A stretch of 64,000 bases of DNA from Thermodesulfobium sp. 4217-1 (lineage in GTDB: Bacteria; Thermodesulfobiota; Thermodesulfobiia; Thermodesulfobiales; Thermodesulfobiaceae). Numbering within the stretch: position 1 is the stretch's first letter; each line of letters starts with the position of its first letter. The notes under the pieces are model-generated. The model ran no database searches and was not told the origin of the DNA. It was given only the letters and a program-made list of their open reading frames with translations. The stretch covers positions 1 to 64,000 of the forward strand of contig NZ_JBAGBW010000008.1 in assembly GCF_039822205.1 (NCBI RefSeq). The letters run 5' to 3'. Shown in pieces: positions 9,203 through 64,000 of this stretch. The position numbers were made by a program, and so were the translations under genes.

Positions 9203-9238
9203 TATCTACACCTCACAATTTTTTAATAAAAATATTGT

Positions 9239-10363
9239 TCAAAGCCTATTATTAATTAATAATTTTCTTGAACTAACTACATTATAATAAACATTTTCCA
9301 ACATTTGCATTTGCTTAAATATATTAAAATCATCTATAATCTCTTCCCTTGATCTCTTAGAACACTCTTCTCGCATAACTCTATCCCTGTAGCTATCCAT
9401 TAATGCGCGCGAAAGCTCATCCTTTAGGTTCATAGGATCTAAAAGTATTCCAAAACCGTGCAGCGCATCCTTTGTGGCTCCTACGTCGGTAGCTATGCAC
9501 ATAACCCCAGAACTCATAGCCTCTAAGAGAGCAAGAGACAACCCCTCTATTGATGATGGTAGAACAAAAACGTCGCTGGATCTGTATATGTCTTGTTTTA
9601 AATTTAAGTCTGCCTCGCCAAAGAAAATTATGTTTTTGTGCTCAAAATCCTTTTTTAGCTTAATAAGCTCAATACCGTCGCCAACAATTAAAAGCTTAAC
9701 TCTCTCAGGAAAATTATGTTCCAAAAATGCCTCGCACAATACTCTTACATTTTTTTCAGGGCTTATTCTCCCCAAGAAAAGAAACAAAAAATCCGCCTCA
9801 AGCCTTTCTTTAAGATCGGAAAAACCTGGCGAATATCTTATCGGGTCAACCCCATTTGGTATAATCTGAAGTTTTTCTTTTTTTACGCCCTTTTCAATAA
9901 GGAATTCACTCTGCACTGATGAAAGGGTAACGATTTTGTCATAATTGTTCAGAAATGGGGCATAAACATTGTAAACGAGCTGTGAAAACACGCCCCATAA
10001 GGTTTTATTTTTGTCAAAAGGAGGATGAAATGTAGCAACCACAGGAATTTCATCAAACAGATCTGGTATAAAAAAATCTAAAAAAGACAGTGTCAAAGAT
10101 ATGTGTATACAATCTGGTTTTACCGACTTCACAATATCTTTCAATTTTTTTATCGTCGATGGCGCTATCATAATGTATGGCTGAGTCTTAAATAGATATG
10201 GTAAAAAGCTTCTGTCGGCCTCGTCTTCGCCTTCATCGAAAAGTAGAAGGTGAATGCTGTGTCCTCTTTCTTCAAGCTTTTCCTTAATTTCCTGAACATA
10301 AACCGAATTTCCATCAAGCGGGGAAAGCCTACCAAGAATCAATATTTTAAGCTTATCCAACAC
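9239..10363 (-). CDS. glycosyltransferase family 4-type (GT-B fold)
   Basis: The 374-residue protein has the retaining GT-B layout. The N-terminal half opens with KILILGRLSPLDGNSVYV, a sugar-acceptor-side Rossmann domain. The C-terminal half contains FLGRISPEKNVRVL and the donor-site signature VLPSSIEGLSLALLEAMSSG, with its conserved E-x7-E pattern. The GTG start at 10363 is chosen because GGAGG lies 6 bases upstream; longer versions overlap the MFS gene without a ribosome site. It overlaps the MFS stop by 11 bases and is followed by GT2, suggesting a three-gene polysaccharide or glycolipid unit. The acceptor is not identifiable. Confidence 0.88.
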   Translation of the reverse strand: MLDKLKILILGRLSPLDGNSVYVQEIKEKLEERGHSIHLLLFDEGEDEADRSFLPYLFKTQPYIMIAPSTIKKLKDIVKSVKPDCIHISLTLSFLDFFIPDLFDEIPVVATFHPPFDKNKTLWGVFSQLVYNVYAPFLNNYDKIVTLSSVQSEFLIEKGVKKEKLQIIPNGVDPIRYSPGFSDLKERLEADFLFLFLGRISPEKNVRVLCEAFLEHNFPERVKLLIVGDGIELIKLKKDFEHKNIIFFGEADLNLKQDIYRSSDVFVLPSSIEGLSLALLEAMSSGVMCIATDVGATKDALHGFGILLDPMNLKDELSRALMDSYRDRVMREECSKRSREEIIDDFNIFKQMQMLENVYYNVVSSRKLLINNRL

Positions 10364-11549
10364 TGTCGGCCTCCAATGCAACAGATTTCATAGAAAAATA
10401 TAATGACGAGGTTAAAACGCCAAGCACCAGAAAACATATTCTTACGCCAAACATGTCTGCCAGTCCGCCAGTAAAAAGAATGGGAAAGGTCGAAGTAAAA
10501 CTGATAAACATATTTAAGATGGAAAAAACTCTCCCTCTAAAAGATTCTTTTACCACCTTCTGTATCATAGACTGAATTGGGATGTTTACAAGCGCATTTG
10601 AAATTCCTAAGAAGAATGAAACAATCGGAATAATAAAGATCTGAGTAAATACAGACATTAAAACCAGACACAAACTTGCAAACAATATTCCTGCTCTTAC
10701 AATTACAGAGTTTTTGAACGCAGTTGTTTTAATATGGCCTATAATTAAGGATCCTATAACCATCCCAAGGCCAGCAGGGACGACAATTATAGAAAAATTA
10801 GCCTCGCTAAGATGCAAGACCTCTCTAACATATCCCACTGCCAGAACGCTTACCATACCCATTAAAGAGGTAGCAATAGATTGTTGGAGTATTAATACCT
10901 GAATTAGCTTTGAAGACTTTATATAACTAAAGGAATCAAAAAGTGCCTTCTTGAAAGAGCAGGTTTTAATATCCGGGTGGGGTCTGTCATTTGGCAAAAT
11001 TGAAGAAACGAATGACGCTATCAAATATGATATTGCTGCGAACAGCACCGCTATCTTTATGCCAAAAAACAAAACAACTGGACTAATAGCAGCGAAACCA
11101 AGTATAAATGACATTACCCATGTAACGTTAAAAAGCGAATTAGCAGCAGGCAAGTTTTTCGTTGATGCAGTTTTTGGTATCATGGCGAATTCTGCAGGAG
11201 CAAATATAACAATCAAGGACGCTATAAGAAAGCTATACAGATAAATTGCAAAAAGGTTATTCAAAAAAAATACTAAAGCAGTAGATAAAAGACTCCTTAA
11301 AACATTTATGGTTATCAAAATAACCTTTCTATCCATCTTGTCCAAAAAAACTCCAACAAAGGGCGCTATTATTACAGAAGGAAGGGCAAAAGCAACCATC
11401 AAAGAAGAAACGCTAATATTGGTACTGGTAATATTAGAAACTGCGATCATTAAGGCTGCCATTAAAAATTTATCTGAAAACTGTGAAAAGATTTGTGCAA
11501 TCCACAGTCTCAAAAAATATTTATCTTCAAAAATCCAAATTTTTCCCAT
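10353..11549 (-). CDS. MFS transporter
   Basis: A 398-residue protein with about 12 hydrophobic segments. It contains the loop motif GVFLDKMDRKVIL after the second helix, which is the major facilitator motif A, and a related segment in the second half. The type resembles the MFS_3/enterobactin-exporter-like group; the substrate cannot be assigned. ATG at 11549 is preferred because AGGAA is 5 bases upstream. Its first 23 bases overlap the recO 3' end, implying translational coupling. The downstream glycosyltransferases hint at an envelope-related cargo, but that is only positional. Confidence 0.85.
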   Translation of the reverse strand: MGKIWIFEDKYFLRLWIAQIFSQFSDKFLMAALMIAVSNITSTNISVSSLMVAFALPSVIIAPFVGVFLDKMDRKVILITINVLRSLLSTALVFFLNNLFAIYLYSFLIASLIVIFAPAEFAMIPKTASTKNLPAANSLFNVTWVMSFILGFAAISPVVLFFGIKIAVLFAAISYLIASFVSSILPNDRPHPDIKTCSFKKALFDSFSYIKSSKLIQVLILQQSIATSLMGMVSVLAVGYVREVLHLSEANFSIIVVPAGLGMVIGSLIIGHIKTTAFKNSVIVRAGILFASLCLVLMSVFTQIFIIPIVSFFLGISNALVNIPIQSMIQKVVKESFRGRVFSILNMFISFTSTFPILFTGGLADMFGVRICFLVLGVLTSSLYFSMKSVALEADSVG

Positions 11550-12078
11550 AGACTTCCTTATCCACAAGTTTTATCGATTTTGGCAGGTAGCCCAAAATGT
11601 CGATAATTCTTCTCTTTATATTCTTATAATCCTCTACATCATCATTGCAAACGGTTGTATCTAAGAAGCCAGCGCAATAAAACTCTTCATTCAAACACCT
11701 TACCAACCAGGCTAAGTCTTTAAATTGCGTTTCTCCATCAGAAATTATATTTTCAGCTACTCTTTCCACAGATTCAAAAGCACCTCTTGCAATCTTATCT
11801 ATTATGTCCAGGTATGACAGTAACAAGATAGACTGATTGAAAGATTTTATTTCAGGCGATCTTATAATATTATATTCATTTAAAATTGCAACTTCACTCT
11901 TTGTCTTGACAAGTTCTATGTCCACAAGGGTGCCAGGAAAAACCAATTTTCTAAAAATATTTTTTTTGTTGCCTCTTAGAAAAACCGGAACTGAGCCTTC
12001 TTGATCTGTTAGAATCTTTACGATAAAACTGTTCTCTCTTATAGGAAAAGATCTTAAAAAGATACCCCTGTATATCAT
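11527..12078 (-). CDS. recO: DNA repair protein RecO, short form
   Basis: RecO helps load RecA at single-strand gaps through its N-terminal OB fold. The N-terminus (YRGIFLRSFPIRENSFIVKILT, then VFLRGNKK) matches this domain, and the helical domain follows. At 183 residues it is clearly shorter than typical RecO and ends before the zinc-binding cysteine motif. Only a lone Cys-Cys-poor tail (VCNDDVEDYKNI) remains. The downstream frame is taken up by the MFS gene start, so no lost segment is seen there. It overlaps cdd by one base (TAATG). Assignment rests on the N-terminal half and context. Confidence 0.75.
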   Translation of the reverse strand: MIYRGIFLRSFPIRENSFIVKILTDQEGSVPVFLRGNKKNIFRKLVFPGTLVDIELVKTKSEVAILNEYNIIRSPEIKSFNQSILLLSYLDIIDKIARGAFESVERVAENIISDGETQFKDLAWLVRCLNEEFYCAGFLDTTVCNDDVEDYKNIKRRIIDILGYLPKSIKLVDKEVYGKNLDF

Positions 12079-12533
12079 TAAGTCAGTTTAAAAGGGCGTC
12101 CTAATAGATCTGACAACAATACAATCTTTCTTTCGCTCTCTGAAACAAGGATAATTGGGAAATCGCCGCTCACAAATTCAGACAAAACCTGAAGGCAACA
12201 ACCACACGGATATGGCAGCACATCTTTATTGTAAACGCAAAGACAAAGGAAATTGCTATTTCCGGATGAAACAGACTTAAATATGGCCACCCTCTCAGCA
12301 CACATAGTAGCGCCATAAGAAGAATTTTCTACATTACATCCTAAAAATATATCTCCCTTATCTATCAACAAGCTAGAGCCGACAGCAAATTTAGAATAAG
12401 GCGAATAAGAAAACAATGAAGCTTTTTTAGCCCCATTTATAAGTTTTTCTATTAAGTTTTCATTTGTTTTACATTTAGAGTTTAAATGTAAATTTATCTT
12501 ATCTTCCATATTCAAATTTTTTACCCCATACAA
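12078..12533 (-). CDS. cdd: cytidine deaminase
   Basis: The tetrameric zinc-type cytidine deaminase converts cytidine or deoxycytidine to uridine in pyrimidine salvage. Zinc and proton-shuttle motifs are intact: GCNVENSSYG, then CAERVAIF (zinc Cys and catalytic Glu) and PCGCCLQVLSEF (two more zinc Cys). The TTG at 12533 is the longest option; TTG 12515 and ATG 12509 are equally plausible because residues before about 28 are not conserved. A TATAAT box at 12540-12545 lies so close that a shorter start is attractive. The gene is coupled to recO and lies near pyrG, giving a pyrimidine cluster. Confidence 0.9.
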   Translation of the reverse strand: MYGVKNLNMEDKINLHLNSKCKTNENLIEKLINGAKKASLFSYSPYSKFAVGSSLLIDKGDIFLGCNVENSSYGATMCAERVAIFKSVSSGNSNFLCLCVYNKDVLPYPCGCCLQVLSEFVSGDFPIILVSESERKIVLLSDLLGRPFKLT

Positions 12534-12539
12534 TTAATA

Positions 12540-12545
12540 ATTATA
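12540..12545 (-). promoter_or_regulatory. probable -10 box before cdd
   Basis: On the minus strand TATAAT lies just before the cdd reading frame. No good -35 hexamer is found at 17 bases; a weak TGTGCA occurs slightly further away. If transcription starts about 7 bases after this box, the longest cdd start would be leaderless, which favours the internal starts. Confidence 0.4.
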
Positions 12546-12602
12546 TCCAACTAAAAATACTAAATGCACATAAGCTAATTATAGCGCATTTAAATATCGA
12601 AT

Positions 12603-14225
12603 CTAATCGGTTGTTGCTGCTTTTATAAAGTCAAAAAAAAGTGGATGTGGTTTGTTTGGCCTTGATTTAAATTCGGGATGAAACTGAGTACCTAAAAACC
12701 ACTTGTGATCTTTCAATTCTACAATTTCAACTAAGTTTTTCTCTTCAAATAAGCCGCTAGTAACCATACCAGCGCCCTCAAAAGCCTCCTTGAAAAGGTT
12801 GTTAAACTCATATCTGTGTCTGTGTCTCTCTAATACCAGCTCTTGATTGTAAGCACGTTTTGCAATAGTATTGTCGGCCAACTTGCATGGAAAAGCTCCA
12901 AGTCGCATTGTAGCACCTTTATCTATTACACATTTTTGTTCTTCCATTAGGTCTATTATTGGGAACTTTGTATTTTCATCAAATTCTGTGCTGTTAGCAC
13001 CTTCCAACCCAAGCACATCTCTAGCAAATTCGATGCACATAATCTGCATACCCAAGCACAGTCCGAAATAAGGTATGTTATTTTCACGGGCATATCTTGC
13101 TGACAAGATCTTCCCTTCTATTCCTCTTACGCCAAATCCCCCAGGCACTACGATGCCCTTTACGCCTTCAAACATCTTCTTCGCATCATCCAAAGAATTA
13201 ATATCTTCAGTATTTATCCATCTAATTTTTAGATCATATCCTAAATGTAGACTGCTGTGTCTTAAAGACTCAACAACGCTAATATAGGAATCAGGCAGGC
13301 CTACATATTTTCCTGCGATAGCTATCTCAACCGAACCCTTTAGGCTTCTGGCCATTTCGACTATCCTTGCCCAGCTTTCCAATTGCGGTTCTACATAAGG
13401 CTCAATTTTTAACTTGCTTGACACGAGCTTGCTCAGCTTGTTTGACTCGAGCATTATTGGAGCCTCATAAATGACGTCCTTCACGTCTTGCAATGGGATT
13501 ACCGCTTCTGGCTCTACGTCGCAAAACAAAGATATTTTTTCCCTTATCGAGCTATTAATGGACTTTTCTGATCTAAGAATTATAATATCAGGCTGAATCC
13601 CAATACTTCTCAGTTCTTTAACGCTGTGCTGAGTGGGCTTTGTTTTAAGCTCTTTTGCAGCCTTTAAATAAGGGACAAGAGTTAAGTGAATATAAAGGGT
13701 GTTATCCCTGCCAACATCTTTCTTAAATTGTCTAATTGCCTCCAAAAACGGCTCGCCTTCAATATCTCCTACTGTGCCTCCGACCTCACAAATAAGGATG
13801 CCTCCATCTGTAAGCAGCTCTGCAGCCTCTTTTACCTTTGCCTTTATTTCGTTTATTACGTGTGGGACAACCTGCACGGTACCTCCCAAGAAATCTCCGC
13901 GCCTTTCCTTCAATAAAATTTCTTGATAGACCATGCCAGATGTCAGGTTCGATGATTTGGTTAGACTCGTATTTATAAATCTCTCATAGTGTCCAAGGTC
14001 AAGATCTGTCTCAGCCCCATCATCAGTTACAAATACTTCTCCATGTTGATAGGGATTCATTGTCCCCGGATCCACATTTAAATAAGGATCGAGTTTGATA
14101 ACGTTTACCTTTTGCCCCATAGACTTAAGGATCCTCCCTAAGGATGCAACTACTATACCCTTACCAAGCGATGAGGTAACCCCACCTGTGACAAAAACAA
14201 ACTTTGTATTATTGTTTGACTTCAT
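12603..14225 (-). CDS. pyrG: CTP synthase
   Basis: CTP synthase aminates UTP to CTP using glutamine and ATP. The 540-residue protein has the full two-domain layout. The N-terminal synthase domain opens with FVTGGVTSSLGKGIV (nucleotide loop), then KLDPYLNVDPGTMNPYQHGE. The C-terminal class I glutaminase has PYFGLCLGMQ with the nucleophile Cys, and a C-terminal HPEF for the His-Glu pair. The ATG has AAAGGAG 8 bases before it. It overlaps the preceding CBS-transporter gene by 17 bases, suggesting co-translation. Confidence 0.97.
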   Translation of the reverse strand: MKSNNNTKFVFVTGGVTSSLGKGIVVASLGRILKSMGQKVNVIKLDPYLNVDPGTMNPYQHGEVFVTDDGAETDLDLGHYERFINTSLTKSSNLTSGMVYQEILLKERRGDFLGGTVQVVPHVINEIKAKVKEAAELLTDGGILICEVGGTVGDIEGEPFLEAIRQFKKDVGRDNTLYIHLTLVPYLKAAKELKTKPTQHSVKELRSIGIQPDIIILRSEKSINSSIREKISLFCDVEPEAVIPLQDVKDVIYEAPIMLESNKLSKLVSSKLKIEPYVEPQLESWARIVEMARSLKGSVEIAIAGKYVGLPDSYISVVESLRHSSLHLGYDLKIRWINTEDINSLDDAKKMFEGVKGIVVPGGFGVRGIEGKILSARYARENNIPYFGLCLGMQIMCIEFARDVLGLEGANSTEFDENTKFPIIDLMEEQKCVIDKGATMRLGAFPCKLADNTIAKRAYNQELVLERHRHRYEFNNLFKEAFEGAGMVTSGLFEEKNLVEIVELKDHKWFLGTQFHPEFKSRPNKPHPLFFDFIKAATTD

Positions 14226-28967: not shown

Positions 28968-29978
28968 TTAATAGCCCTCTCCTTCACCTTCTTTTATCTT
29001 GTAGCTAAATGTTTTATATGTCCAAAATTTATACGCAAGTACAATCGGTACGAATATTATCACTACAACTGTCATAACGGTTAATGTATATTGGCTTGAA
29101 GATGAGTTAAAAGCGCTTAAGCTAAAAGCATTGTTGATGCTAGAAGGAATAAGATTTGGATATAATCCTCCTACGCCAGTAAACGTTAAAAATATTATAC
29201 ATATCGCCGATGATAGAAAGGCCATAATTTCAGAGGAATTGATAAAAAATCCTGCTCCCAAAAGCCCAATTACACAAAGAATGGGCACAATAAGTAGAAA
29301 TGGCATAGAAAAGTAGTTGGCATAAAGATTGGTTACAAAGTAAGCGCTTACCAAGAACAAAACTGCAAAGAATAGCGTGATAAACCATAGCTTCCTGGCA
29401 AGAGCCTTAGCCCTAAGATTGATATCCCCTTCAGTTCTAAAAGAAAGCCAAAGAGAGCCATGCAACAAGAAAGCTACTACAAACAAGATACCGGTAATTA
29501 GCCCAAACGGGTTAAGAAGCGTTATCAGATTTCCATGATAGCCGGTCTGATCGATTGGAAGTCCTTGAAAAATATTCCCAAAGGCAACTCCAAGCAAAAG
29601 TGCAGGTAAAAGACTCCCAAGAAACAATCCATTTTCTAACAAAGAAGCTAAAGAAGGATTATTTACCTTATACCTAAATTCAAGGCATACAGCTCTTATT
29701 ATCAAGCCGTACAAAATAAGCATAAGCGGAAGGTATAGAAAACTGAACATATAGGCATATGTAGTCGGAAAAGCAGCAAAAGTAGCGCCTCCTGCAGTTA
29801 TAAGCCATACCTCGTTAGCATCCCAAACGGGGCCAACGCTTTCAAGCATAGTCTTTTTGTCTTGATCTGTTTTACCAAAAAATGGAAATAACATACCTAT
29901 TCCAAGATCAAAACCATCAAGGGCAAAATACATAGCCCAAAGCAGTCCCCAAATGATAAACCACAATATATTTAACAT
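28968..29978 (-). CDS. cydB: cytochrome bd quinol oxidase subunit II
   Basis: A 336-residue polytopic protein with the CydB opening MYFALDGFDLGIGMLFPF and VGPVWDANEVWLITAGGATFAAFP, a signature of the subunit. With CydA it oxidises quinol and reduces oxygen to water without proton pumping. It lies 11 bases behind cydA and ends before the terminator. No cydX-like small gene is visible after it. In a presumed anaerobe it likely serves oxygen removal. Confidence 0.95.
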   Translation of the reverse strand: MLNILWFIIWGLLWAMYFALDGFDLGIGMLFPFFGKTDQDKKTMLESVGPVWDANEVWLITAGGATFAAFPTTYAYMFSFLYLPLMLILYGLIIRAVCLEFRYKVNNPSLASLLENGLFLGSLLPALLLGVAFGNIFQGLPIDQTGYHGNLITLLNPFGLITGILFVVAFLLHGSLWLSFRTEGDINLRAKALARKLWFITLFFAVLFLVSAYFVTNLYANYFSMPFLLIVPILCVIGLLGAGFFINSSEIMAFLSSAICIIFLTFTGVGGLYPNLIPSSINNAFSLSAFNSSSSQYTLTVMTVVVIIFVPIVLAYKFWTYKTFSYKIKEGEGEGY

Positions 29979-29989
29979 AACTTCACCCC

Positions 29990-31306
29990 CTAATCCGTTT
30001 CCAAAGGACCCTTGCGGGCATAATAAGTTAATAGCGTAAAATCAAGAACAGCAAGCGCTGTATACAAAACAATGAAAATTCCAAGAGTTAATATGACGTC
30101 TCCAATTGTCAAGTTTTTGCTAACAGCATCGTTCGTCTTCAACAAACCATACACTATCCAGGGCTGTCTTCCAACCTCAGCAACAATCCAGCCAACTTGA
30201 GTAGCAATATATGGAAGAGGAAGTGAGTAGAGCATTATTCTCAAAAAACCACGATGATTGAGCAATTTGTCTTTCTTAGCAAGCCACCATGCCAAAATCG
30301 TTAGAAATATAAAAAGCGTTCCCAAACCAACCATTATCCTAAAACTCAGAAAAACTGGAGTTACAGGGGGGATATCGTTCTGAGGGAAGCTATTTAGCCC
30401 CCTGACTGTAGCATTGGGATCATGATAAGCAAGCAAGCTTAAGAGAGACGGTATAGGAAAAGCCTCTACCAGATTTGACTTTTTAGCATCATCAGGCACC
30501 AACAAAAGGTAAATTGGAGCTGATTTTTCAGTATTCCAAAGAGACTCCATTGCAGCTATTTTTGTTGGTTGAACATGTGCAACCTCTGCAGCGTGCATAT
30601 CACCAATAAAAAATACAAGTAAACTCGAAATCATGCCAAAGGTGGCAGCAATGTAAAATGACTTTTTAAAAAACTCAACATTTTGTTTTTTCAAAAGATG
30701 ATAGGCAGATATACCCATTACAAAAAAAGCACCTACAACAAAGCCTGCTGTAATGGTGTGGGTAAACTTAAGCCATGCGTATGGGTTAAACACCACAGCA
30801 GCAAAATTGGTCATCTCTGCTCTATTGTTCTTAAGAACAAAGCCTACAGGATCTTGCATCCAAGCATTGGCAATGAGTATCCATAGAGCAGACAGATTTG
30901 ATGAGAAGGCCACAAGCCAGATACTAATTAAGTGCATCTTTGGCGATATCCTTTTCCACCCAAAAAGCCAAACTCCCAAGAATGTAGATTCAAGGAAGAA
31001 AGCAAGTGTAGCCTCTATTGCAAGAGGCGCGCCAAAAATATCACCCACATAAATAGAGTATTGAGCCCAGTTAGTACCAAATTGAAATTCAAGTGTAATA
31101 CCAGTGACAATGCCTAAAACAAAATTAATTAGAAATAGCCTTCCCCAAAATTTTGTCATCTTCAGATAAATTTCATTTTTTGTTCTGTAATGAAGAGTTT
31201 CCATTATTGCCACAAGGATGCCCAAGCCCAAAGTTAATGGGACAAAAATAAAGTGGTACATTGCAGTAGCTCCAAATTGCAGTCTTGACAATGTTACAAC
31301 GTCCAT
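29990..31306 (-). CDS. cydA: cytochrome bd quinol oxidase subunit I
   Basis: A 438-residue subunit carrying hemes b558, b595 and d. FGATAMYHFIFVPLTLG contains the N-terminal heme His. KFTHTITAGFVVGAF has the second axial His, and GRQPWIVYGLLKT is the conserved C-terminal motif. The Q loop appears short, as in non-enterobacterial forms. The ATG follows GGGGGAAAT. The upstream gap 31307-31399 is shared with a divergent methyltransferase gene and should contain the promoter. Confidence 0.96.
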   Translation of the reverse strand: MDVVTLSRLQFGATAMYHFIFVPLTLGLGILVAIMETLHYRTKNEIYLKMTKFWGRLFLINFVLGIVTGITLEFQFGTNWAQYSIYVGDIFGAPLAIEATLAFFLESTFLGVWLFGWKRISPKMHLISIWLVAFSSNLSALWILIANAWMQDPVGFVLKNNRAEMTNFAAVVFNPYAWLKFTHTITAGFVVGAFFVMGISAYHLLKKQNVEFFKKSFYIAATFGMISSLLVFFIGDMHAAEVAHVQPTKIAAMESLWNTEKSAPIYLLLVPDDAKKSNLVEAFPIPSLLSLLAYHDPNATVRGLNSFPQNDIPPVTPVFLSFRIMVGLGTLFIFLTILAWWLAKKDKLLNHRGFLRIMLYSLPLPYIATQVGWIVAEVGRQPWIVYGLLKTNDAVSKNLTIGDVILTLGIFIVLYTALAVLDFTLLTYYARKGPLETD

Positions 31307-33872: not shown

Positions 33873-34532
33873 ATGGAAGTTGAAAAAAATGGTGCAATTT
33901 TACAAAGAGATAAAGAAACATACGCCGTAGTAGCAAGGATCCCTTGTGGGATACTCTCTCTTGAAACTATGGAAACAATTTCATCAGTAGTAAAAAAGTA
34001 TTCTATACCAATAGTTAAAATCTCATCAGGACAAAGAATTGTGTTAGTTGGGATCAAGCCTGACGAAATTGATCTAGTCTGGGCAGATCTAAAAACAGGA
34101 ATTGGCAGGGCGCTTGAGCCTTGTCTACACTATGTCCAAGCATGTCCTGGGACAAGCGTTTGCAGATTTGGGCAAAAAAATTCTCTTGAAATGGGCATGA
34201 AATTAGAAAATATTTTATACGGCTTGCCTACTGCTGCAAAAATAAAAATTGGAGTATCAGGATGTCCATTTAACTGTGGTGAAGCTTTCACAAGAGACAT
34301 AGGTTTGATTGGAACAGTTAAAGGTTGGAAATTGATTTTTGGAGGCAATTCTGGCAGGGCTCCCAGGATTGGTGACGTCATAAAAGAAGAGCTATCTGAA
34401 GAGGATGCAGTGGATCTGGTTAAAAGGGCTATAAAAATATATACAGACAAGGCTAACCCAAAAGATAGGAGTGCAAGATTCATCGAAAAGTTTGGCATAG
34501 AAAATTTTAAAAAAGAGGTTTTTGGCTCTTAA
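33873..34532 (+). CDS. small siroheme/4Fe-4S sulfite-nitrite reductase-like protein
   Basis: The 219-residue protein carries the NIR/SIR fold: an N-terminal ferredoxin-like half (VARIPCGILSLETMETISSVV) and the siroheme-iron-sulfur site CPGTSVC plus GCPFNCGEA, giving C-x5-C and C-x3-C. Its size matches the low-molecular-weight assimilatory-type sulfite reductases of sulfate reducers and methanogens rather than the large DsrAB or CysI. No electron partner gene is adjacent. It probably reduces sulfite or nitrite, or detoxifies sulfite; substrate not determined. Confidence 0.87.
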   Translation: MEVEKNGAILQRDKETYAVVARIPCGILSLETMETISSVVKKYSIPIVKISSGQRIVLVGIKPDEIDLVWADLKTGIGRALEPCLHYVQACPGTSVCRFGQKNSLEMGMKLENILYGLPTAAKIKIGVSGCPFNCGEAFTRDIGLIGTVKGWKLIFGGNSGRAPRIGDVIKEELSEEDAVDLVKRAIKIYTDKANPKDRSARFIEKFGIENFKKEVFGS

Positions 34533-52665: not shown

Positions 52666-52806
52666 ATTTGAATTTGATAAAAGATATATAATGTAAGTTC
52701 ATGCATTAATTATATATTAAAATGGTTTCTATAATAAATTTTATAATTATTATTTTTTTCTTTGTATAATTGATAGATAAAGATTATTCTCAGAGGAGGT
52801 GAAAAA

Positions 52807-53871
52807 GTGAACAGTTTCCCAAAGCTTACTTCTTTAGTTCGTTGTGCTGGCTGAGCAGCAAAACTCAATCCAAAGGACCTAGGTGAGGTCTTAAAAGATT
52901 TACCAAAATTTGAGCATCCTGGACTAATTTTTAGCTCTGATGGCCTTGATGACGCAGGAGCTTTTGTGATAAAAGATGATTTAGCCATTGTTCAATCTGT
53001 TGACTTTTTCCCTCCTGTAGTAAACAGCCCCGACTTATACGGGAAGATTGCCGCTGCTAATTCTCTCTCGGATTTATATGCCGTTGGAGCAAAGCCGATA
53101 ACTGCATTAAATATCCTCGGATTTCCAAGATATGATATTGAACTCGATGTGATAAACGAAATACTTAGAGGCTCTCACGAAAAAGTTAAAGAAGCCGGTG
53201 CATTGATTCTTGGTGGGCACACTGTCGACGATTTAGAATTAAAATATGGACTTAGTGTTACTGGAATTGCAAAAAAGGATGAGCTGATTGCCCACAACAG
53301 AGCACAGCCAGGCGATATAATCATCCTTACAAAACCGCTTGGTACAGGAATACTCACTTCTGCCTTAAAAATTGACCTGATAGATGAAGAGGATATGAAA
53401 GACGCTCTTCAATCTATGCAAGAGCTAAATTATTTTGCTGGTGAAGCACAAAAAAGGTTTAAAGCAACTTCTGGCACAGATATAACAGGTTTTGGCCTGG
53501 TCGGACACGCAGCAAATATAGCAAGATCCAGCAAAGTCGTATTTGAGATATTTTCTAAATCACTACCTATATTTGAAGGAGTTTTAAACCTTGCAAACGA
53601 TAGCGTGCTCCCTGCTGGGATATTCGCAAATATTGATTTTTATAAAGAAAATGTCGTTGAAATAGGCAAAATTGATGAAAATTATAAATACGTCATTTAT
53701 GATCCACAGACCTCAGGTGGGCTTCTTTCTACTTACAATCCAGATGTCGTAGACGATGTATTAAAATTTCTTAAAGACAATGGAGTTGATGGATACATTA
53801 TAGGCAGTGTAAAAAAAGGAGCTGCATTTAGTTCTGGCACAATCGTTTTTAAAGAAGGATCATTTAGATGA
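52807..53871 (+). CDS. selD: selenide, water dikinase with in-frame selenocysteine codon
   Basis: SelD makes selenophosphate for selenocysteine and selenouridine. From GTG 52807 (GAGGAGGTG upstream) the frame reads VNSFPKLTSLVRCAG, TGA (52852-52854), AAKLNPKDL. The TGA stands at the catalytic Cys17 position of E. coli SelD, and the essential Lys follows three residues later. The frame then stays open for 338 codons with GHTVDDLELKYGLSVTG and TDITGFGLVGHA. Product 354 residues including Sec16. An annotation beginning at 52966 would be truncated. ATGA overlap with the permease gene. Confidence 0.95.
52874..52892 (+). promoter_or_regulatory. SECIS-like hairpin in selD
   Basis: AGGACCT and AGGTCTT can pair (one wobble pair) around AGGTG. 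The hairpin begins 20 bases after the TGA, where bacterial SECIS elements lie to bind SelB. It is within coding sequence. Confidence 0.6.
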
Positions 53872-56884: not shown

Positions 56885-57270
56885 AACCCAAAACTCCCTT
56901 CAAATTTATTTGTCTATAAATTATAAGTAATGGCAAAAGCTAATTTTAATAAAGTAAAAACACCTACATGATGTAGTAAATCTTAATGTCAATTATAACA
57001 TATTCTTATGGAATTTATGTGTTTTAGTTATACATACAAAAAAAATAAAAATCTATGTCGTAAGGGATTTTGCTTACATTAATACAATGCTTTCCCTAAT
57101 AAAAACTTCATCTTTCCCCAACTATTTTTTTATATAACTAAATTTTATCATTAATACAAATAAAATTTATGAATAAATTTTATAAACGATTCGAGGAGGT
57201 GACAGAGTAATTTCGCTCAAAAGAATTTTAGTTAGTAAAGTATAAAAAATTTTAAGGGAGGGAAACAAAA
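56885..57270. other. 386-base divergent region between two TauE/SafE modules
   Basis: No normal-length gene is found. CTACATGATGTAG at 56964-56976 is a 13-base palindrome and possible operator. A strong GAGGAGG ribosome site at 57193-57199 precedes an 11-codon frame starting with ATT at 57210. The real TauE/SafE 2 ribosome site, AAGGGAGGG, comes 60 bases later. Promoters for both modules must be here, but several AT-rich candidates cannot be ranked. Confidence 0.5.
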
Positions 57271-58572
57271 ATGTTAAAAGGATTTTTCGGAGGGCTTTAT
57301 AAGACAGGAGAGTTAATTAATGAGGCTTCAAAGGCTCAGGGGAAGTGGCAGTTGGAGACAAGCAATACGATATTAATGAGGAGAAAGAAATTTTTACTCA
57401 TATTATTTCTCCCAGTGCTTGCAGGATTGGCGATGCAGTGTGCATTTGCAGCAGGACCGACATATATTGGCGGTGGGCATGCCTATATGCCTGCAGTAGC
57501 CACTACTCAAATGCTTTGCGGTATCCTTGTAATCGGTTTGTTGTCAGGCCTAATCACTGGAGTCATAGGAGCTGGAGGAGGATATGTTCTTACTCCTGCG
57601 TTAATGACGCTTGGCGTAAAGGGAATTATGGCAGTTGGAACAGATCAATTTGCAATATTTGCAAACGCAATACTTGGAACAACACTTCACAAAAAGTTAG
57701 GCAACGTAAACCTTTGGTTAGCAGTATGGTTTGTAGTAGGTTCATTCGCAGGGGTCACTATAGGAGCATCTATCAATAGGCAAATCTATGCGCTAAGTCC
57801 AGCTCTCAGCGATGCTTTTATTTCCACAGTTTATGTAATATTGCTCGGAATACTTGGATTCTACTCAACTATGGACTATATAAAGTTAAGAAAGGGACAA
57901 AAGGATACCTCAAGAAAGGCGATCATGGATGTTAGAACTGGATTCGCACGCTGGCTTCAAAACATCCCATTAAAGCCAAGAATCAAATTTGATGACCACA
58001 TATTCGAAGGCGGAATGAGCATATCTGTATACCCAGTTGTTATATGCGGCTTTATAGTAGGTTTTGTAGCAGCGATAATGGGAGTCGGTGGAGGATTCTT
58101 GACATTTCCTCTCTTTGTATATGGATTAGGAGTTTCAACCTTTACAACGGTAGGCACGGACATTCTTCAAATAATCTTTACAACAGCCTATTCGTCAATC
58201 TTTAACTATGCAATATACGGCTATATCTTTTACAGCATAGCCATAACGATGCTTCTTGGCTCCCTGATAGGAGTTCAAATCGGCGCTATGGTAACAACAT
58301 TTGTAAAGGGCACAACAATCAAGCTCTTTTATGCACTAACCATATTAGCAGGATTCGTAAACAGGCTTGCAGCACTCCCACCAAGATTATCAGATGCAAA
58401 TATTATCGCTATAAGCAAGGAAGCTTCAAGTGTCTTAACAATGATTGGAACAGTTGTATTCTTTGGATTGGTAGCGCTATTTGGATTCTTTGTGCTGTAT
58501 ACCTTTTACGCTAACGTAATAATATCAAAGAAGCCAGCCAAGGAAGTTGTCGAATCAAAGAAGATCTCTTAA
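57271..58572 (+). CDS. TauE/SafE family transporter 2, N-terminally extended
   Basis: 433 residues. A 45-residue amphipathic N-terminal extension precedes the first helix, then two TauE/SafE repeats follow: GVIGAGGGYVLTPALMTLGVKGIMAVGTDQF and AIMGVGGGFLTFPLFVYGLGVSTFTTVGTDIL. The loop between them is longer than in TauE/SafE 1. Long forms of this type are frequent in sulfate reducers. AAGGGAGGG precedes the ATG. It heads the right-hand module. Confidence 0.9.
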   Translation: MLKGFFGGLYKTGELINEASKAQGKWQLETSNTILMRRKKFLLILFLPVLAGLAMQCAFAAGPTYIGGGHAYMPAVATTQMLCGILVIGLLSGLITGVIGAGGGYVLTPALMTLGVKGIMAVGTDQFAIFANAILGTTLHKKLGNVNLWLAVWFVVGSFAGVTIGASINRQIYALSPALSDAFISTVYVILLGILGFYSTMDYIKLRKGQKDTSRKAIMDVRTGFARWLQNIPLKPRIKFDDHIFEGGMSISVYPVVICGFIVGFVAAIMGVGGGFLTFPLFVYGLGVSTFTTVGTDILQIIFTTAYSSIFNYAIYGYIFYSIAITMLLGSLIGVQIGAMVTTFVKGTTIKLFYALTILAGFVNRLAALPPRLSDANIIAISKEASSVLTMIGTVVFFGLVALFGFFVLYTFYANVIISKKPAKEVVESKKIS

Positions 58573-58599
58573 GAACAAAATACGAGAGGAGTGAAGAAG

Positions 58600-59385
58600 A
58601 TGTTATCAAATAAGAATAAGCTTCAATTAGGTCTTATAGGAATAATAAGCTTTATGGCAATGTTGGTAGTATGGCTTAGCCCTGTCGCACCAGGACACCT
58701 GACAGGACTTCAGTGGACCGATCAATTTTTCAACGGTCTTACAAAGGCATCAGCTTATCAATATCCAAAAGTGTTCAAGGATAGTGAGCGCTTTATAGGC
58801 AAAACATTTAATCTAAACTATCGTGCATCGAATGAAAACGAAGCAAAAATGCTCGAAAAGCTATATACATCCTTTGGCGCAAAGGTTGAAATTCAGGGAA
58901 CTTCTTTAGCTATTAGCGGAGACTTAGGAAGGGTGTCACAAGGAATACTCTCATATAGCGAGGACTTCTTCAACAATAGAAGAAAGGATATGACAAGCGT
59001 ATTAGGTTTTGATAGCAAAGACGGACTATATGCTATATATCTATCTCAGCAAGCCCTTGAAAAGTCCTATTTAAGAAACAATCAGGCATCAGAGCTACAA
59101 TTTGTAAGAGAAATTTTAGAAAGAGCTATAGAGCCAGCCTACAATTTTGACGGAATAGTTGCTGCTGGAGCTCCAAAGTCCGTTGAAGGAGAATATGCCC
59201 TGGGCGCCCTTAGAAGTTATCCAAGCATAGAACAAAGCCCTGTTGGGATAAAGGAAATGATAATTCTTAGCGCTTTAATAATATTTTATCTACTATATAC
59301 CTGCTGGTATGGTTTCTCGCTAATGTACCTATTAGAAGGCGCAGGAGTATCAAAGCTAAGTAAGAAGTCAAGAAAAGAAGCATAG
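58600..59385 (+). CDS. membrane-anchored protein linked to TauE/SafE 2
   Basis: 261 residues with one helix at each end (about 11-28 and 222-242) and a soluble domain of about 190 residues between, predicted outside the cytoplasm. There are no cysteines for cofactors and no named domain. ATG 58600 is chosen because AGGAG lies 8-9 bases before; GTG 58591 overlaps that site. It is the middle gene of the right module and may be a partner subunit of the transporter. Confidence 0.75.
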   Translation: MLSNKNKLQLGLIGIISFMAMLVVWLSPVAPGHLTGLQWTDQFFNGLTKASAYQYPKVFKDSERFIGKTFNLNYRASNENEAKMLEKLYTSFGAKVEIQGTSLAISGDLGRVSQGILSYSEDFFNNRRKDMTSVLGFDSKDGLYAIYLSQQALEKSYLRNNQASELQFVREILERAIEPAYNFDGIVAAGAPKSVEGEYALGALRSYPSIEQSPVGIKEMIILSALIIFYLLYTCWYGFSLMYLLEGAGVSKLSKKSRKEA

Positions 59386-59399
59386 GCAATGTTCAACAC

Positions 59400-59426
59400 A
59401 GAGGGCACATCAAATATGTGCCCTCT
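59400..59426. repeat. perfect hairpin between module genes
   Basis: AGAGGGCACAT and its complement flank CAAAT. No T run follows on either strand, so it is likely an mRNA-stability or partial-termination element between the membrane protein and Usp-like genes. Confidence 0.7.
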
Positions 59427-59461
59427 CAAGAAAAAATCTCATAAAAGGGGTGATGAAGAAG

Positions 59462-59881
59462 ATGAATCCAATATTAATAGTCATAAAAGATATAAAAAAC
59501 GATAAAAATGTCTTAAAAGGAGGATTCGAAAAGGCGATAGAAGAAGGAAGACCTGCAGTCATAGCTAAGATAATAGAAAAATCAGAGCACCTTGGAGTTT
59601 ACAACCCAGAAGCAGAGGAATATTTCGTCCAAAAAGCGTGGCAGGAAATCGAAAAGGCGATTGAAGATGGAAGAAGACTAGGAATAAATGCTTATGGAAT
59701 CGTGAAAATAGGCTTGCTAGAAGAAAAGATAGATGAAGTAGCAAAGGAAGTAAAAGCAAAACTCGTAGTGATTGGGCAAAAGAAATTGAGTGGTCTTAAA
59801 AAACTCGTGTTTGGCCACGGCATCACAGAAGAGGGAAGCTTTGAAAACGTTTGTCCGGTATTACTAATAGGGAAAAAATAA
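59462..59881 (+). CDS. universal-stress-protein-like protein
   Basis: 139 residues. NPILIVIKDIKNDKNVLKGGFEKAIEEG, KAKLVVIGQKKLSGLKKLVFGHGITEEGSFENVCPVLLIGKK fit the UspA fold with a near-standard G-x2-L...G-x9 segment. ATG 59462 is preferred because AAGGGGTG is well spaced; two starts further upstream are too close to it. It ends the right module, mirroring the Usp of the left one. Confidence 0.8.
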   Translation: MNPILIVIKDIKNDKNVLKGGFEKAIEEGRPAVIAKIIEKSEHLGVYNPEAEEYFVQKAWQEIEKAIEDGRRLGINAYGIVKIGLLEEKIDEVAKEVKAKLVVIGQKKLSGLKKLVFGHGITEEGSFENVCPVLLIGKK

Positions 59882-59940
59882 GTAACGTCCTTTAAGCAAT
59901 AAACATTTTTTGTGCTAAAATTATTAAAAAAAGTGGGGGT

Positions 59941-60906
59941 ATTAAGACCTTTAAAAACTTTAATCTGTCAATTTTAAATTTAGCAAAAAAGCCATATCTA
60001 TTTCTAATAGCTATTTTAATATGCGCATTTTTAGCTTTTTTATGTTTTGTTATGAGGGCAGATTTCAGCTTAGAACCCAGCACATATATTAATCTAAACG
60101 AAAGGCTTTCCAATAGCTATTTAGAAAGGGACAAAACCGACATACTAAGGGTGGTGGTCTCGTCGACCCTCAGTCCAAAAGAGACAATTCACACCTATCA
60201 GCCTTTGCTCCAATATATCTCAAAAAAAACTGGTCTACAATGCATCCTAATACAAAAAAAGACAAATTTTGAAATCAAAGATTTGTTCAACTCTAAAGCG
60301 GTAGATATAGGAATAATAACGGCAAGCGCATATGTCCTTGATCAGGATCAGATGGACATTTTGGCGATACCTGTAATAAATAATGACTTAACTTTTTCAT
60401 CAGTTATAGTCTCAAACAAAAATAATATAAGAACATTTGAAGATTTAAAAGGAAAATCAATAGCATTTACCGATATCGCATCCTTTTCTGGATATCTTAT
60501 ACCCTTATACTATCTCAGAGAAAATAATTTGGATATAAACTACTTTTCCAATCACATTTTTACATTTAATAGTTCTGACTCTATTCGCGCTCTCTTAGAA
60601 AACATCGTAGATGCTGCAGCTTTAAATAGTAAATTTTTTAGAACCTATGTAAAAGAAAACCCTGAAATGTCAGAAAATCTACATATTGTCTGGCAATCTC
60701 CAATCAGAATCGGAAACCCGCCAATCGTAGCCAGAAAAAATATAAGTCCCGAGGTTGAAAAAAAAGTTAAAGATGTATTATTAAATATGTCCAACGATCC
60801 TGAAGGACAAAGAATTCTCAAAAATATGGGATACGACAACTTCTCCAGACCACAATCATTACTATATTTGCCTATAAAAATGATACTGCGAAAACTCGAA
60901 CAATGA
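59941..60906 (+). CDS. PhnD-like periplasmic binding protein, anchored, probable ATT start
   Basis: The PhnD/TtrS-type fold is clear: ILRVVVSSTLSPKETIHTYQPLLQYISKKTG, then VDIGIITASAYVLDQ, LKGKSIAFTDIASFSGYLIPLYYL and VDAAALNSKFF. The first ATG (60052) would leave out an in-frame helix (YLFLIAILICAFLAFLCFV) needed for export. The frame is open upstream to ATT 59941, next to a GGGGG ribosome-like run, without ATG, GTG or TTG in between. This gives 321 residues. ATGA overlap with the kinase gene implies a sensing role; the ligand is unknown. Confidence 0.85.
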   Translation: MKTFKNFNLSILNLAKKPYLFLIAILICAFLAFLCFVMRADFSLEPSTYINLNERLSNSYLERDKTDILRVVVSSTLSPKETIHTYQPLLQYISKKTGLQCILIQKKTNFEIKDLFNSKAVDIGIITASAYVLDQDQMDILAIPVINNDLTFSSVIVSNKNNIRTFEDLKGKSIAFTDIASFSGYLIPLYYLRENNLDINYFSNHIFTFNSSDSIRALLENIVDAAALNSKFFRTYVKENPEMSENLHIVWQSPIRIGNPPIVARKNISPEVEKKVKDVLLNMSNDPEGQRILKNMGYDNFSRPQSLLYLPIKMILRKLEQ

Positions 60907-62300
60907 GCTTAAAAACAAAGATTTTAATTATCAATATATTTTCAATATTTATAATAACTTTAGGGATAGCTTTAGAAATAAAGATCGTACTAACACAAAA
61001 TCTTGAAGATAGGCTGATTCTGAGGACTAACAACATAGCATCCAACCTCTCGGACAGCGTAATAGAACCACTATTATCAAATAATATTTATTTTGTTCAT
61101 CAGATCCTTGTGCAATACAAAGAAAACAATCCTGAGGTAAGTTATATAAACATAATAGGCAACCAAAAAGAGGTACTTAGCAGCACCTTTAGCAATGGCT
61201 TTCCAAAAGAGCTTTATCTTTTACAAACTAGCGACACAGGGAACAATACAGAGGTATTTTCCTCTGAAATAGGTAAAATTATCGATATTAAATATCCTAT
61301 TGCAGATGGCTCTTTCGGATATATCCACGTTGGTGTCACAGAAAAAGAGGTTGAAAAAAGAATACAAGAAATAATAGAAACGATTCTTTTGTTTGGTTTC
61401 TTTATTAACCTGCTAGCCTCTGTTTTACTTTACAAGCTTACAAATTCAATAACCAATAATTTAAAAAAGCTGACTTTATACGCAAAAAGCATAGCTATTG
61501 GCAATAGCGTTTCTCAACCAGATATAAAAGCCGATGATGAGGTAAAAGAACTCTTTACGTCATTCAGGCACATGCTCATGTCGCTGGAAATATCCTCAAA
61601 AGAAGAAATAAAACTAATTACAAAGTTAAAAGATGAAGAAAGAAAAAGAGAACTTCTAAAAAAGACTATGGAGACGCTCGAGAAAGAAAGAAAAAGAATT
61701 TCGATGGAGATACACGATTCGGTAATGCAAAATCTTGCATCTATAAATATAATGCTAAAGATAATCCAATCAAGGCTAAATCAACAAGAAAAATTAGAAA
61801 TAGAAAATTTACAAAAATTAATAGAAGATACAATAGAAGAGCTCAGAAACATCGCAAGAAATCTTAGGCCGCCTCAATTAGAAAAATTGGGTTTAAAATC
61901 AAGTTTAGAATCTTTTTTTGATGAGATAGAAAAAAGACATAATTTAAAAATAGATTTTGACTTTACAATAAGTGAAGAAAAATTAGATTGGACCTGGTCA
62001 ATTAACATCTATAGGATAATTCAAGAGGCCATATCCAATATTGTCAAGCACACAAGTGCAGATATCGCCGTCGTTTTAATAAAAGAATTAGATGACAAAA
62101 TTGAGCTCGAGATAAGAGATAATGGAGAAGGATTTAATGTCGAGGACACCTTAAATAAAAAGGCAACTCGTCTTGGAATAATTGATATGAGAGAAAGGGC
62201 AAAAACATATGGAGGCCAATTTAATATAAGTTCCACAAAAGGAGGTGGTACAGTTGTCAAAATCTCTTTCCCAAAACCTAAAAACAATGATATTAGTTGA
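60903..62300 (+). CDS. NarL-type sensor histidine kinase
   Basis: 465 residues: helix (about 8-28), periplasmic sensor part (30-155), helix (about 160-180), HAMP-like linker, then HisKA_3 with KERKRISMEIHDSVMQNLASI (phospho-His) and HATPase with EAISNIVKHTSA (N box), IRDNGEGFN and STKGGGTVVKI. It should respond to the PhnD-like protein and phosphorylate the next regulator. Overlaps both neighbours. Confidence 0.94.
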   Translation: MSLKTKILIINIFSIFIITLGIALEIKIVLTQNLEDRLILRTNNIASNLSDSVIEPLLSNNIYFVHQILVQYKENNPEVSYINIIGNQKEVLSSTFSNGFPKELYLLQTSDTGNNTEVFSSEIGKIIDIKYPIADGSFGYIHVGVTEKEVEKRIQEIIETILLFGFFINLLASVLLYKLTNSITNNLKKLTLYAKSIAIGNSVSQPDIKADDEVKELFTSFRHMLMSLEISSKEEIKLITKLKDEERKRELLKKTMETLEKERKRISMEIHDSVMQNLASINIMLKIIQSRLNQQEKLEIENLQKLIEDTIEELRNIARNLRPPQLEKLGLKSSLESFFDEIEKRHNLKIDFDFTISEEKLDWTWSINIYRIIQEAISNIVKHTSADIAVVLIKELDDKIELEIRDNGEGFNVEDTLNKKATRLGIIDMRERAKTYGGQFNISSTKGGGTVVKISFPKPKNNDIS

Positions 62301-62952
62301 CGATCATGCCATATTGAGAGCAGGTTTAAAGGCATTGATCCAAGAACATCAAGAAAAATTTAACGTAATTGACGAAGCTTCAAGCGGAAAAGAAGCTGTT
62401 GAAAAAATAAAGAGACTGCAGCCAGACATAGCTGTATTAGACATTTCTTTGCCAGACTCAAGCGGGTTAGACTTAATAGATTCAATCAAATCCAGCTCTC
62501 CAAATACAAAAATTCTTATATTAAGCATGTTTGAAGATGAAACTATGATAGTTAAGGCATTGAAAATGGGGGCAAATGGATTTGTGCCAAAAAGATTGGC
62601 TTACGATGAGCTGATTGAAGCTCTTGAAACAATTTCAAACACAGAGGATACTTATATTCCATCATGTCTTGCAAAAACAGTCTTGAGAGGAATGTTAAAC
62701 AATGAGAAAAAGGTAAAACTCAGTACAAGAGAAAGCCAGGTCCTAAGATATACAGCCTTAGGATATGGAAACAAAGAAATGGCAAACAAACTTAATCTAT
62801 CAGTAAAAACAATAGAAACCTACAAGCTCAGGATTTCAGAAAAAATAAATGCTCAAAAAAAGTCTGATCTTGTAAAATACGCGATAAAAGAGGGCCTTCT
62901 AAAAGAAGAGGAAACAATAGACACATTAAATCATGATGACACATCTCAATAG
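62254..62952 (+). CDS. NarL/FixJ-type response regulator
   Basis: 232 residues: receiver with VDDHAILRAG and phospho-Asp in VLDISLPDSSG, and a LuxR helix-turn-helix (STRESQVLRYTALGYGNKEMANKLNLSVKTIETYKLRI). TTG 62254 is taken because AGGAGG is 8 bases upstream inside the kinase gene; GTG 62245 overlaps that site. It probably controls the permease directly after it and possibly the TauE modules upstream. Confidence 0.94.
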   Translation: MSKSLSQNLKTMILVDDHAILRAGLKALIQEHQEKFNVIDEASSGKEAVEKIKRLQPDIAVLDISLPDSSGLDLIDSIKSSSPNTKILILSMFEDETMIVKALKMGANGFVPKRLAYDELIEALETISNTEDTYIPSCLAKTVLRGMLNNEKKVKLSTRESQVLRYTALGYGNKEMANKLNLSVKTIETYKLRISEKINAQKKSDLVKYAIKEGLLKEEETIDTLNHDDTSQ

Positions 62953-64000
62953 ATGCGCACTTTGTTACAAATAAACTACCCCGATGTGAAAGTTATAATT
63001 TCATTATTGATTCTCTTATTTTTACTCTTTGTCTTATCGGCTGGAAAATCTCCATATCTAAAAATAAATAGAGCTTCCAGCGCGATCATTGGTTCATGCT
63101 TTATCATAATATTTGGAATTCTAAACTTCGATCAAGCTGTAAGCTCTGTGGATATCAGGACAATAGTAATACTATTCAATATGATGATCCTGTCAGGAAG
63201 CTTGAAATTGGCTGGGTTTTTCCCAATGGCAGGTTCATTTCTTATCTCAAACGCAAAAAACAGAATTGCACTGCTATATTTAACTATTTTTATTACAGGA
63301 ATTTTTTCTATGATAATAATAAACGATATAGTTTGTTTATTGTTTACACCAATAGTTATAATAATATGCTCTAGAACCAAAACCTATCCTATACCATTTT
63401 TATTAGGAGTAGCACTTGCATCCAATATTGGAAGTGCATGCTCTTTAATTGGGAACCCACAAAATATAATGATCGCAAATTTGTCCAAAATACCGTTTAC
63501 AGTATATTTTATTAAAACATTGCCGATAAGTTTGCTTGGATTAATATTGGTTGCAATATTTTTACACATAAGATATAGAGATAGGTTGCCAAAAGAGATT
63601 TTGGATACAAAGTATAGAAAGTTTGTCTTTCACAAATACTTAGTTTACAAAAGTATTTTAATTTTGTTTTTTGTAGTGTTAGGCTTTGTGATAAACCTCA
63701 ATCAAGTTGTAGTTTCTAGTCTTGGCGTTGTGTTTCTAATGTTAACCAGAAGAATAAAATCTGAAAAGCTCATTAAAGAGGTAGATTACAGCCTCCTTCT
63801 GACGTTTATCGGACTTTTTATAGTGATAGGGGGAGTTGAAAAAAGTGGGGTTATAAATATATTGGTCAACGATATAGGATATAACCTTTTTAAAAATACA
63901 AGTTTTTTCTCATTTTTAACAGCAATACTATCAAACATCATCGGAAATGTTCCGGCAGTAATGATGCTCCATTACTTTATCCCAAATGAAAATGCCAACT
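62953..64000 (+). CDS. SLC13/ArsB-like ion transporter (3' end outside window)
   Basis: Starting from ATG 62953, immediately after the regulator stop, 349 codons are open to the window edge. The product has about ten hydrophobic segments. FMIIINDIVCLLFTPIVI-like and ASNIGSACSLIGNPQNIMIANLSKI correspond to the substrate-loop signatures of the ion transporter superfamily (ArsB, NhaD, SLC13), and SNIIGNVPAVMML is the second copy. The substrate may be arsenite, sulfate or a carboxylate. No own ribosome site; coupled to the regulator. Confidence 0.88.
   Translation, partial: MRTLLQINYPDVKVIISLLILLFLLFVLSAGKSPYLKINRASSAIIGSCFIIIFGILNFDQAVSSVDIRTIVILFNMMILSGSLKLAGFFPMAGSFLISNAKNRIALLYLTIFITGIFSMIIINDIVCLLFTPIVIIICSRTKTYPIPFLLGVALASNIGSACSLIGNPQNIMIANLSKIPFTVYFIKTLPISLLGLILVAIFLHIRYRDRLPKEILDTKYRKFVFHKYLVYKSILILFFVVLGFVINLNQVVVSSLGVVFLMLTRRIKSEKLIKEVDYSLLLTFIGLFIVIGGVEKSGVINILVNDIGYNLFKNTSFFSFLTAILSNIIGNVPAVMMLHYFIPNENAN

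Follow-up and report, generated by a model that had tools for sequence, protein, structure and literature searches.

Gene content of the locus and of a paralogous cassette

The window analyzed here comprises positions 1-64,000 of a 75,033-base contig of Thermodesulfobium sp. 4217-1 (NZ_JBAGBW010000008.1); at its 3' end it carries genes for a membrane-anchored, PhnD-like binding protein (X1), a sensor histidine kinase (S1), a response regulator (R1) and a permease, which together may represent a three-component sensor that has shifted from the control of respiratory enzymes to the control of anion transporters. The four-gene cluster that a preceding sequence-only reading had placed at 59941-64000 is present in full on the plus strand, with all members overlapping or abutting. 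X1 (59941-60906; 321 aa; PF12974, E 1.5e-52) is a binding protein of the AioX/ArrX family; S1 (60903-62300) combines two transmembrane segments and a periplasmic sCache/PAS-like domain with HAMP, HisKA_3 and HATPase_c domains; R1 (62245-62952), whose true start may be a later ATG, is a NarL/LuxR-type regulator with Response_reg and GerE domains; and the CitMHS/ArsB-like permease (62953-64191; 412 aa) extends beyond the window end at 64000 and is complete in the contig (L002 5954-7192). X1 and S1 overlap by 4 bp, S1 and R1 by 56 bp, and R1 and the permease meet with a gap of zero, stop codon to ATG, in each of the four species compared, represented by the 2.0-Mb source genome in 69 contigs and three congeneric genomes. 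Independent transcription of the permease, named beforehand as an outcome that would count against the cluster, is not what this abutment in four species suggests. Chance open reading frames are ruled out by the synteny, which is kept across the four species at 77-97% identity.

Ahead of X1 on the same strand lie tauE1 (57271-58572; 433 aa), a TSUP/TauE-SafE transporter gene (PF01925, 126.5 bits against a cut-off of 32.6); a gene for a 264-aa membrane protein with two transmembrane segments (58591-59385), which is kept in the four species and has no Pfam or NCBIfam match and no assigned family; and usp1 (59450-59881), encoding a universal stress protein (PF00582). A second cassette on another contig, present in all four species, reads Usp2a - 80-aa membrane protein - TauE2 - Usp2b - X2 - S2 - R2, where from TauE2 onward neighboring genes overlap or are separated by 2-9 bp; Usp2a is a paralog of Usp1, TauE1 and TauE2 share 33% identity over 307 aa, X1 and X2 about 38-40%, S1 and S2 36%, and R1 and R2 48%. 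Both TauE proteins belong to PF01925, like the TSUP/TauE-SafE transporters of sulfate reducers (PMC5840216). The CitMHS permease occurs only at the window locus and none follows R2, so that by gene content the two cassettes have TauE, Usp and the X-S-R genes in common, and the sensor has TauE (TSUP) and Usp as its conserved partners and not the permease. The earlier suggestion that the neighboring TauE modules are related to the cluster is thereby strengthened, and the permease loses its proposed place as main target. The association of TauE, Usp and X-S-R genes has been kept through large sequence divergence and in four species; since no TauE gene was found near any of about 30 other X loci, with a few kb covered around each, the pairing appears peculiar to this lineage, which has kept it in both copies.

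The two cassettes also share an upstream sequence. A dyad-like motif (CCTACATGATGTAGT; 56963-56977, plus strand) located 308 bp upstream of tauE1 is a candidate binding site of R1/R2 or of some other regulator common to both cassettes. In alignments of the four species, CYTACAWRANGTART is common to the regions upstream of tauE1 and usp2a; it is the best shared block at widths of 13, 15 and 24 columns, where equally good blocks arose in 5%, 0.7% and 0 of 300 column shuffles, respectively, and at 18 columns a reverse-strand block outscores it. Within each species the tauE1 and usp2a sites are alike (for example, CTTACAAAANGTAAT in genome G003 and CYTACATGANGTAGT in genome G000), as would be expected if regulators of one class acted on both cassettes. 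A pattern search of the 2.0-Mb genome, using a pattern derived from these same sites, returned exactly two exact matches, one per cassette.

Family placement and pocket of X1

The arsenic-oxyanion systems AioXSR, ArxXSR and ArrXSR are three-component (XSR) systems (Badilla et al., 2018, PMC5908839). The Thermodesulfobium cluster resembles them in its PhnD-like X protein, its kinase with two transmembrane segments and a periplasmic domain, and its response regulator; X1 is nearest to ArrX, and the Chrysiogenes regulator ArrR also falls outside the NtrC type, being FixJ-like. A joint profile of X1 and X2 matched the solved chain of ArrX (E 1.2e-50) ahead of AioX (1e-34) and PhnD (1e-25), and a fold search with the AlphaFold model of X1 returned ArrX as the best match (TM 0.89-0.90 of the target). 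In a 34-row tree, X1 and X2 are sisters (support 99/97) within the sensory X group, and the ABC-type PhnD-like proteins branch apart (100/99). Adjacent X, kinase and regulator genes and an X protein nearer to sensory X proteins than to the PhnD of ABC transporters are both found here; by sequence and model comparison X1-S1-R1 therefore belongs with the XSR systems as Badilla et al. describe them, and is not the new sensor type that had been suggested, because profile search, fold match and tree all place X1 in the AioX/ArrX family. The kinase's own periplasmic domain, which had been put forward as distinguishing, is indeed present; as a novelty it was rejected, since two transmembrane segments about 130-150 residues apart occur in all eight XSR kinases examined (S1, S2 and six others). 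The S1 matches to HAMP and sCache_3_2 fall just under the cut-offs, its periplasmic domain was modeled with modest confidence as helix plus beta-sheet, and a fold search with full-length S1 recovered no more than the common NarL-type kinase core, as in DesK and VraS (model pTM 0.35, so that the fold of the sensor domain is provisional).

The X1 polypeptide consists of a transmembrane helix (residues about 18-39), a disordered linker (about 39-65) and a two-lobed domain (68-320); the mean pLDDT of its model is 85, and most of both lobes exceeds 90. The absence of a ligand pocket in structure prediction, which would have spoken against a sensor, is not seen: the model has a two-lobed binding fold with a conserved cleft. 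The residues of this cleft are substantially altered. The seven pocket positions, numbered as in AioX with the known spacing of the motifs as anchor, are Tyr88, Cys106, Tyr131, Ser161, Ser163 (alternatively Thr), His192 and Asp210 (alternatively Glu) in AioX, ArrX and most of the remaining X proteins. At these positions X1 has Asn109, Thr127, Phe152, Ser181, Ser183, Ser211 and Asn229, with two of the seven kept and five changed (Y88N, C106T, Y131F, H192S and D210N in AioX numbering). The X2 series is Tyr, Gly, Tyr, Ser, Ala, Ile/Val and Asp, with four kept. Cys106 and His192 are absent from both, though kept in nearly all other X proteins examined, and the arsenite-binding Cys is thus lost in X1 and X2 alike. 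Because the seven-residue pocket of the family is not retained, X1 and X2 are filed only in the wider class of X-type sensors, and not as AioX, ArxX or ArrX. The X1 pocket pattern is identical in all four species, and X1 identity among three species is highest in the cleft blocks (65/68), followed by the rest of the lobes (144/181) and by the anchor and linker (31/67); this conservation argues for a working pocket that would accept another ligand. The rebuilt yet conserved pocket, together with the second paralogous, TauE/Usp-linked cassette and its shared upstream motif, is what is new here. As an observation on X pockets elsewhere, one genome (G291:C25 and C68; L069, L077) encodes four X proteins, and in two of these the pocket residues are atypical (His, Cys, Asp or Tyr, Ser, Ala, Ser).

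For the start of X1, no ATG, GTG or TTG was found in frame ahead of the membrane segment, and ATT was taken as the first codon; judging from the sequence, translation may begin at this ATT, at a leaderless GTG (59933) followed by a -1 shift at TTTAAAA, or at another start. In the GTG frame, TTTAAAA has the phase of a -1 slippery heptamer, at which a shift would join the X1 frame; unshifted, the GTG frame reaches a stop after 12-14 codons; TTT AAA codons are to be expected anyway in an AT-rich gene. An extended -10-like element (TGcTAAAAT; 59913-59921, plus strand) stands directly before X1, where TGnTAAAAT is kept in the four species, and would be consistent with promoter activity; between 59913 and 59960, all four species have TGnTAAAAT followed by GTGGGGGTATT and CCTTTAAAAA.

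Proposed ligand, target genes and competing explanations

The sulfur physiology of the organism provides the context for the ligand. The genome contains dsrA (534 bits against a cut-off of 393) and about nine TauE matches, and SulP, DASS and CysP genes are absent from it; this profile agrees with the report on Thermodesulfobium narugense, which counts no SulP, no DASS, no CysP and 12 TSUP transporters, leaving TSUP as the only candidate sulfate-uptake family reported in that species (PMC5840216). Separately, tandem TauE-like matches in one of the genomes (G000:C2:76800-78243) are halved, some with internal stop codons, and are possible pseudogenes or sequencing errors.

The gene order, the protein families, the placement of X at family level, the paralogous cassette, the changed yet conserved pocket and the shared motif are observations. 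The following scheme goes beyond them: in it, the binding of a ligand, the contact between X and S, the direction and the target genes of regulation, the substrates transported and the identity of the ligand are inferred. X1 would be tethered at the outer face of the membrane by its uncleaved helix and flexible linker, and would bind a small anion in the periplasm; loaded X1 would dock on the periplasmic domain of S1 and alter its kinase activity; phosphorylated R1 would then alter how transporter genes in the same cassette are transcribed, namely the operon permease and the upstream unit of tauE1, the 264-aa gene and usp1; and X2-S2-R2 would act likewise on TauE2 and Usp. Docking and transporter switching are proposed by analogy, because both have precedents. 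In the Salmonella PgtC-PgtB-PgtA-PgtP system, a separate sensor protein, a kinase and a regulator switch on a permease encoded alongside (PMC11077982); in contrast to the permease here, PgtP is a phosphoglycerate transporter (the CitMHS permease does not match the GlpT/UhpT family), and the likeness drawn here is one of gene organization. In the HptA-HptS-HptR/UhpT system of Staphylococcus aureus, the binding protein docks on the periplasmic domain of the kinase and controls a transporter (PMC8774646), but its ligand is glucose-6-phosphate and HptA is not among the sequence matches of X1. The tetrathionate sensor TtrS/TtrR similarly has a PhnD-like module feeding a LuxR-type regulator (TtrR model: 63 bits against a cut-off of 290), yet this module is fused to the kinase in TtrS and encoded by a separate gene here (TtrS model: 15.4 against 750 bits).

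That an AioX/ArrX-type three-component sensor has in this way moved from respiratory-enzyme control to anion-transporter control, most likely with a sulfur oxyanion as its ligand, appears to us evenly poised between right and wrong. For the ligand itself, a sulfur oxyanion (sulfate, sulfite or thiosulfate) is the first, tentative choice, favored because of the organism and its TSUP genes; this is the weakest step. The top fold match of X1 is an ArrX Y138A variant bound to sulfate (6x8w), and the equivalent of the mutated tyrosine is Phe152 in X1; as buffer may have supplied the sulfate of that crystal, this is a hint only. By analogy with sulfate- and phosphate-binding proteins, the loss of the acidic acceptor Asp210 in X1 would suit a fully ionized anion such as sulfate; X2 retains the Asp. 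A bolder version, speculative and rather doubtful, holds that X1 and X2 sense two different sulfur oxyanions (e.g., sulfate; and sulfite or thiosulfate) and control TSUP-type sulfate/sulfite gates where other known sulfate carriers are absent; the natural change to Phe152 at the tyrosine mutated in the sulfate-bound ArrX is in line with it. We know of no description of XSR regulation of TSUP transporters in sulfate reducers, in which the sensing of outside sulfur oxyanions and the sulfate-uptake carriers are both poorly known. The occurrence of this family, so far tied to arsenic respiration, twice beside TSUP genes and with a rebuilt pocket offers a testable route to both ligand and transporter, and suggests a wider range for XSR sensors than arsenic or the control of molybdoenzymes.

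Several points weigh against the proposed sulfur-oxyanion control of transporters. The ligand, transcription and transport steps are predictions from sequence and structural models; substrates vary within both the TauE and the CitMHS family; the changed residues of the X1 pocket single out no one ligand, a carboxylate or organic anion being possible; and clefts are often more conserved for structural reasons as well. The shared motif may belong to another regulator, and the -10-like element of X1 may divide tauE1-usp1 and X1-S1-R1-permease into separate transcription units. Finally, the two cassettes descend from one duplication and thus represent one association, not fully independent evidence.

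Among the alternatives, sensing of a carboxylate, sulfonate or phosphate ester, with the CitMHS permease as the main target in the manner of PgtCBA-PgtP and TauE/Usp as an unrelated older neighbor, is conceivable but unlikely. It accords with the CitMHS match of the permease (PF03600, 212.5 bits against a cut-off of 31.9), a family named for citrate transport; with the abutment of R1 and the permease; with the conserved -10-like element that parts Usp1 from X1; with MctS/MctR as the best, below-cut-off NCBIfam matches of S1 and R1; and with X-S-NarL-type R triads of Paenibacillus that adjoin a GlpT/UhpT-like MFS gene (family judged by eye). The recurrence of TauE and Usp in a second cassette that has no permease, and the upstream motif shared by both TauE units, speak against it. 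In the Paenibacillus triads (L024, L025, L026, around 8200-13000) the MFS gene is divergent and the X pocket reads Tyr Ser Tyr Ser Ser His Asn. The permease had no match in a sequence search of the PDB, and its score against the DASS/SLC13 model TIGR00785 (71.2 bits) lies below the cut-off of 198.6.

It is improbable that X1 is no longer a ligand sensor and acts as a structural partner, leaving the periplasmic domain of S1 as the true sensor. The loss of five of the seven family pocket residues and the sCache/PAS-like domain in S1 would fit such a role, but four species share one and the same altered pocket, its cleft blocks are the most conserved part of the protein, and such a domain occurs in all XSR kinases examined.

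The prospects of arsenic sensing, in which X1 would bind arsenite or arsenate like AioX/ArrX and an ArsB-like permease would export arsenite, are slim. The closest solved relatives of X1 are ArrX and AioX, and the permease is weakly ArsB-like (Pfam ArsB, 54.6 bits against a cut-off of 22.2); against this, its NCBIfam ArsB score of 81.4 bits is far under the cut-off of 457, Cys106 and His192 are lost in both X proteins, and X1 also has no equivalents of Tyr88, Tyr131 and Asp210. Elsewhere, X genes frequently have kinase genes, regulator genes and molybdoenzyme operons as neighbors (apart from X, S and R, families were judged by eye). The cluster described here differs from the AioXSR, ArxXSR and ArrXSR systems in its loss of pocket residues, in its transmembrane-tethered X protein, in having TauE/Usp and a CitMHS permease as neighbors, and in having no molybdoenzyme; aio, arx or arr molybdoenzyme genes are absent between the 52-kb position of the window and the contig end, and no arsR, arsC, acr3 or molybdoenzyme gene was recognized in the 18 kb examined. 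The reductase or oxidase genes that had been anticipated beyond 64000 did not materialize, since no such operon of the arsenic or sulfur-oxyanion kind occurs downstream of 64191 to the contig end. The arsenic sensor with ArsB pump was rejected on pocket residues and model scores, and the arsenic oxyanion named earlier as a possible ligand is accordingly unlikely.

The PF12974 and TIGR01098 matches of X1 might suggest a phosphonate/phosphite ABC transporter of which it is the orphan binding protein. This is very unlikely, because the PhnC/PhnE partners of such a transporter are missing: no ABC genes are adjacent and no PhnE in the genome exceeds the cut-off (best 56.5 against 216.7 bits); the position of X1 among the sensors in the tree, its membrane anchor and its operon with kinase and regulator also contradict this role, which was rejected on the tree and the PhnE search.

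Other features of the contig

Between the 264-aa gene and usp1, a strong hairpin with the arms AGAGGGCACAT and ATGTGCCCTCT and no U run (59400-59426, plus strand) has a stem that is kept in the four species; it perhaps serves in mRNA processing or stability. Beyond 64191 follow a convergent YjiG/YjiH-like pair (L002 7193-8088), QueC, a double-cubane-cluster reductase with its activase (L002 9185-11193; NF040772, 465 bits; TIGR00241, 190 bits) close to this pair, and UmuC-like, lactate permease and chemoreceptor genes. Within the window, a gene at 33873-34532 encodes a 219-aa protein that resembles the C-terminal part of NirB/sulfite reductase (TIGR02374, 172 bits, below cut-off) as a stand-alone siroheme/FeS-type domain, and a cytochrome bd oxidase-like pair (28968-31306; family judged by eye) occurs in what is probably a strict anaerobe. 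The reading frame of the selenide, water dikinase SelD (52789-53871) runs through a TGA (52852-52854) where the N-terminal Cys/Sec residue is expected (CAGUAAK), and from its sequence SelD is probably a selenoprotein; its open reading frame in the program-made list begins too late, at 52966.

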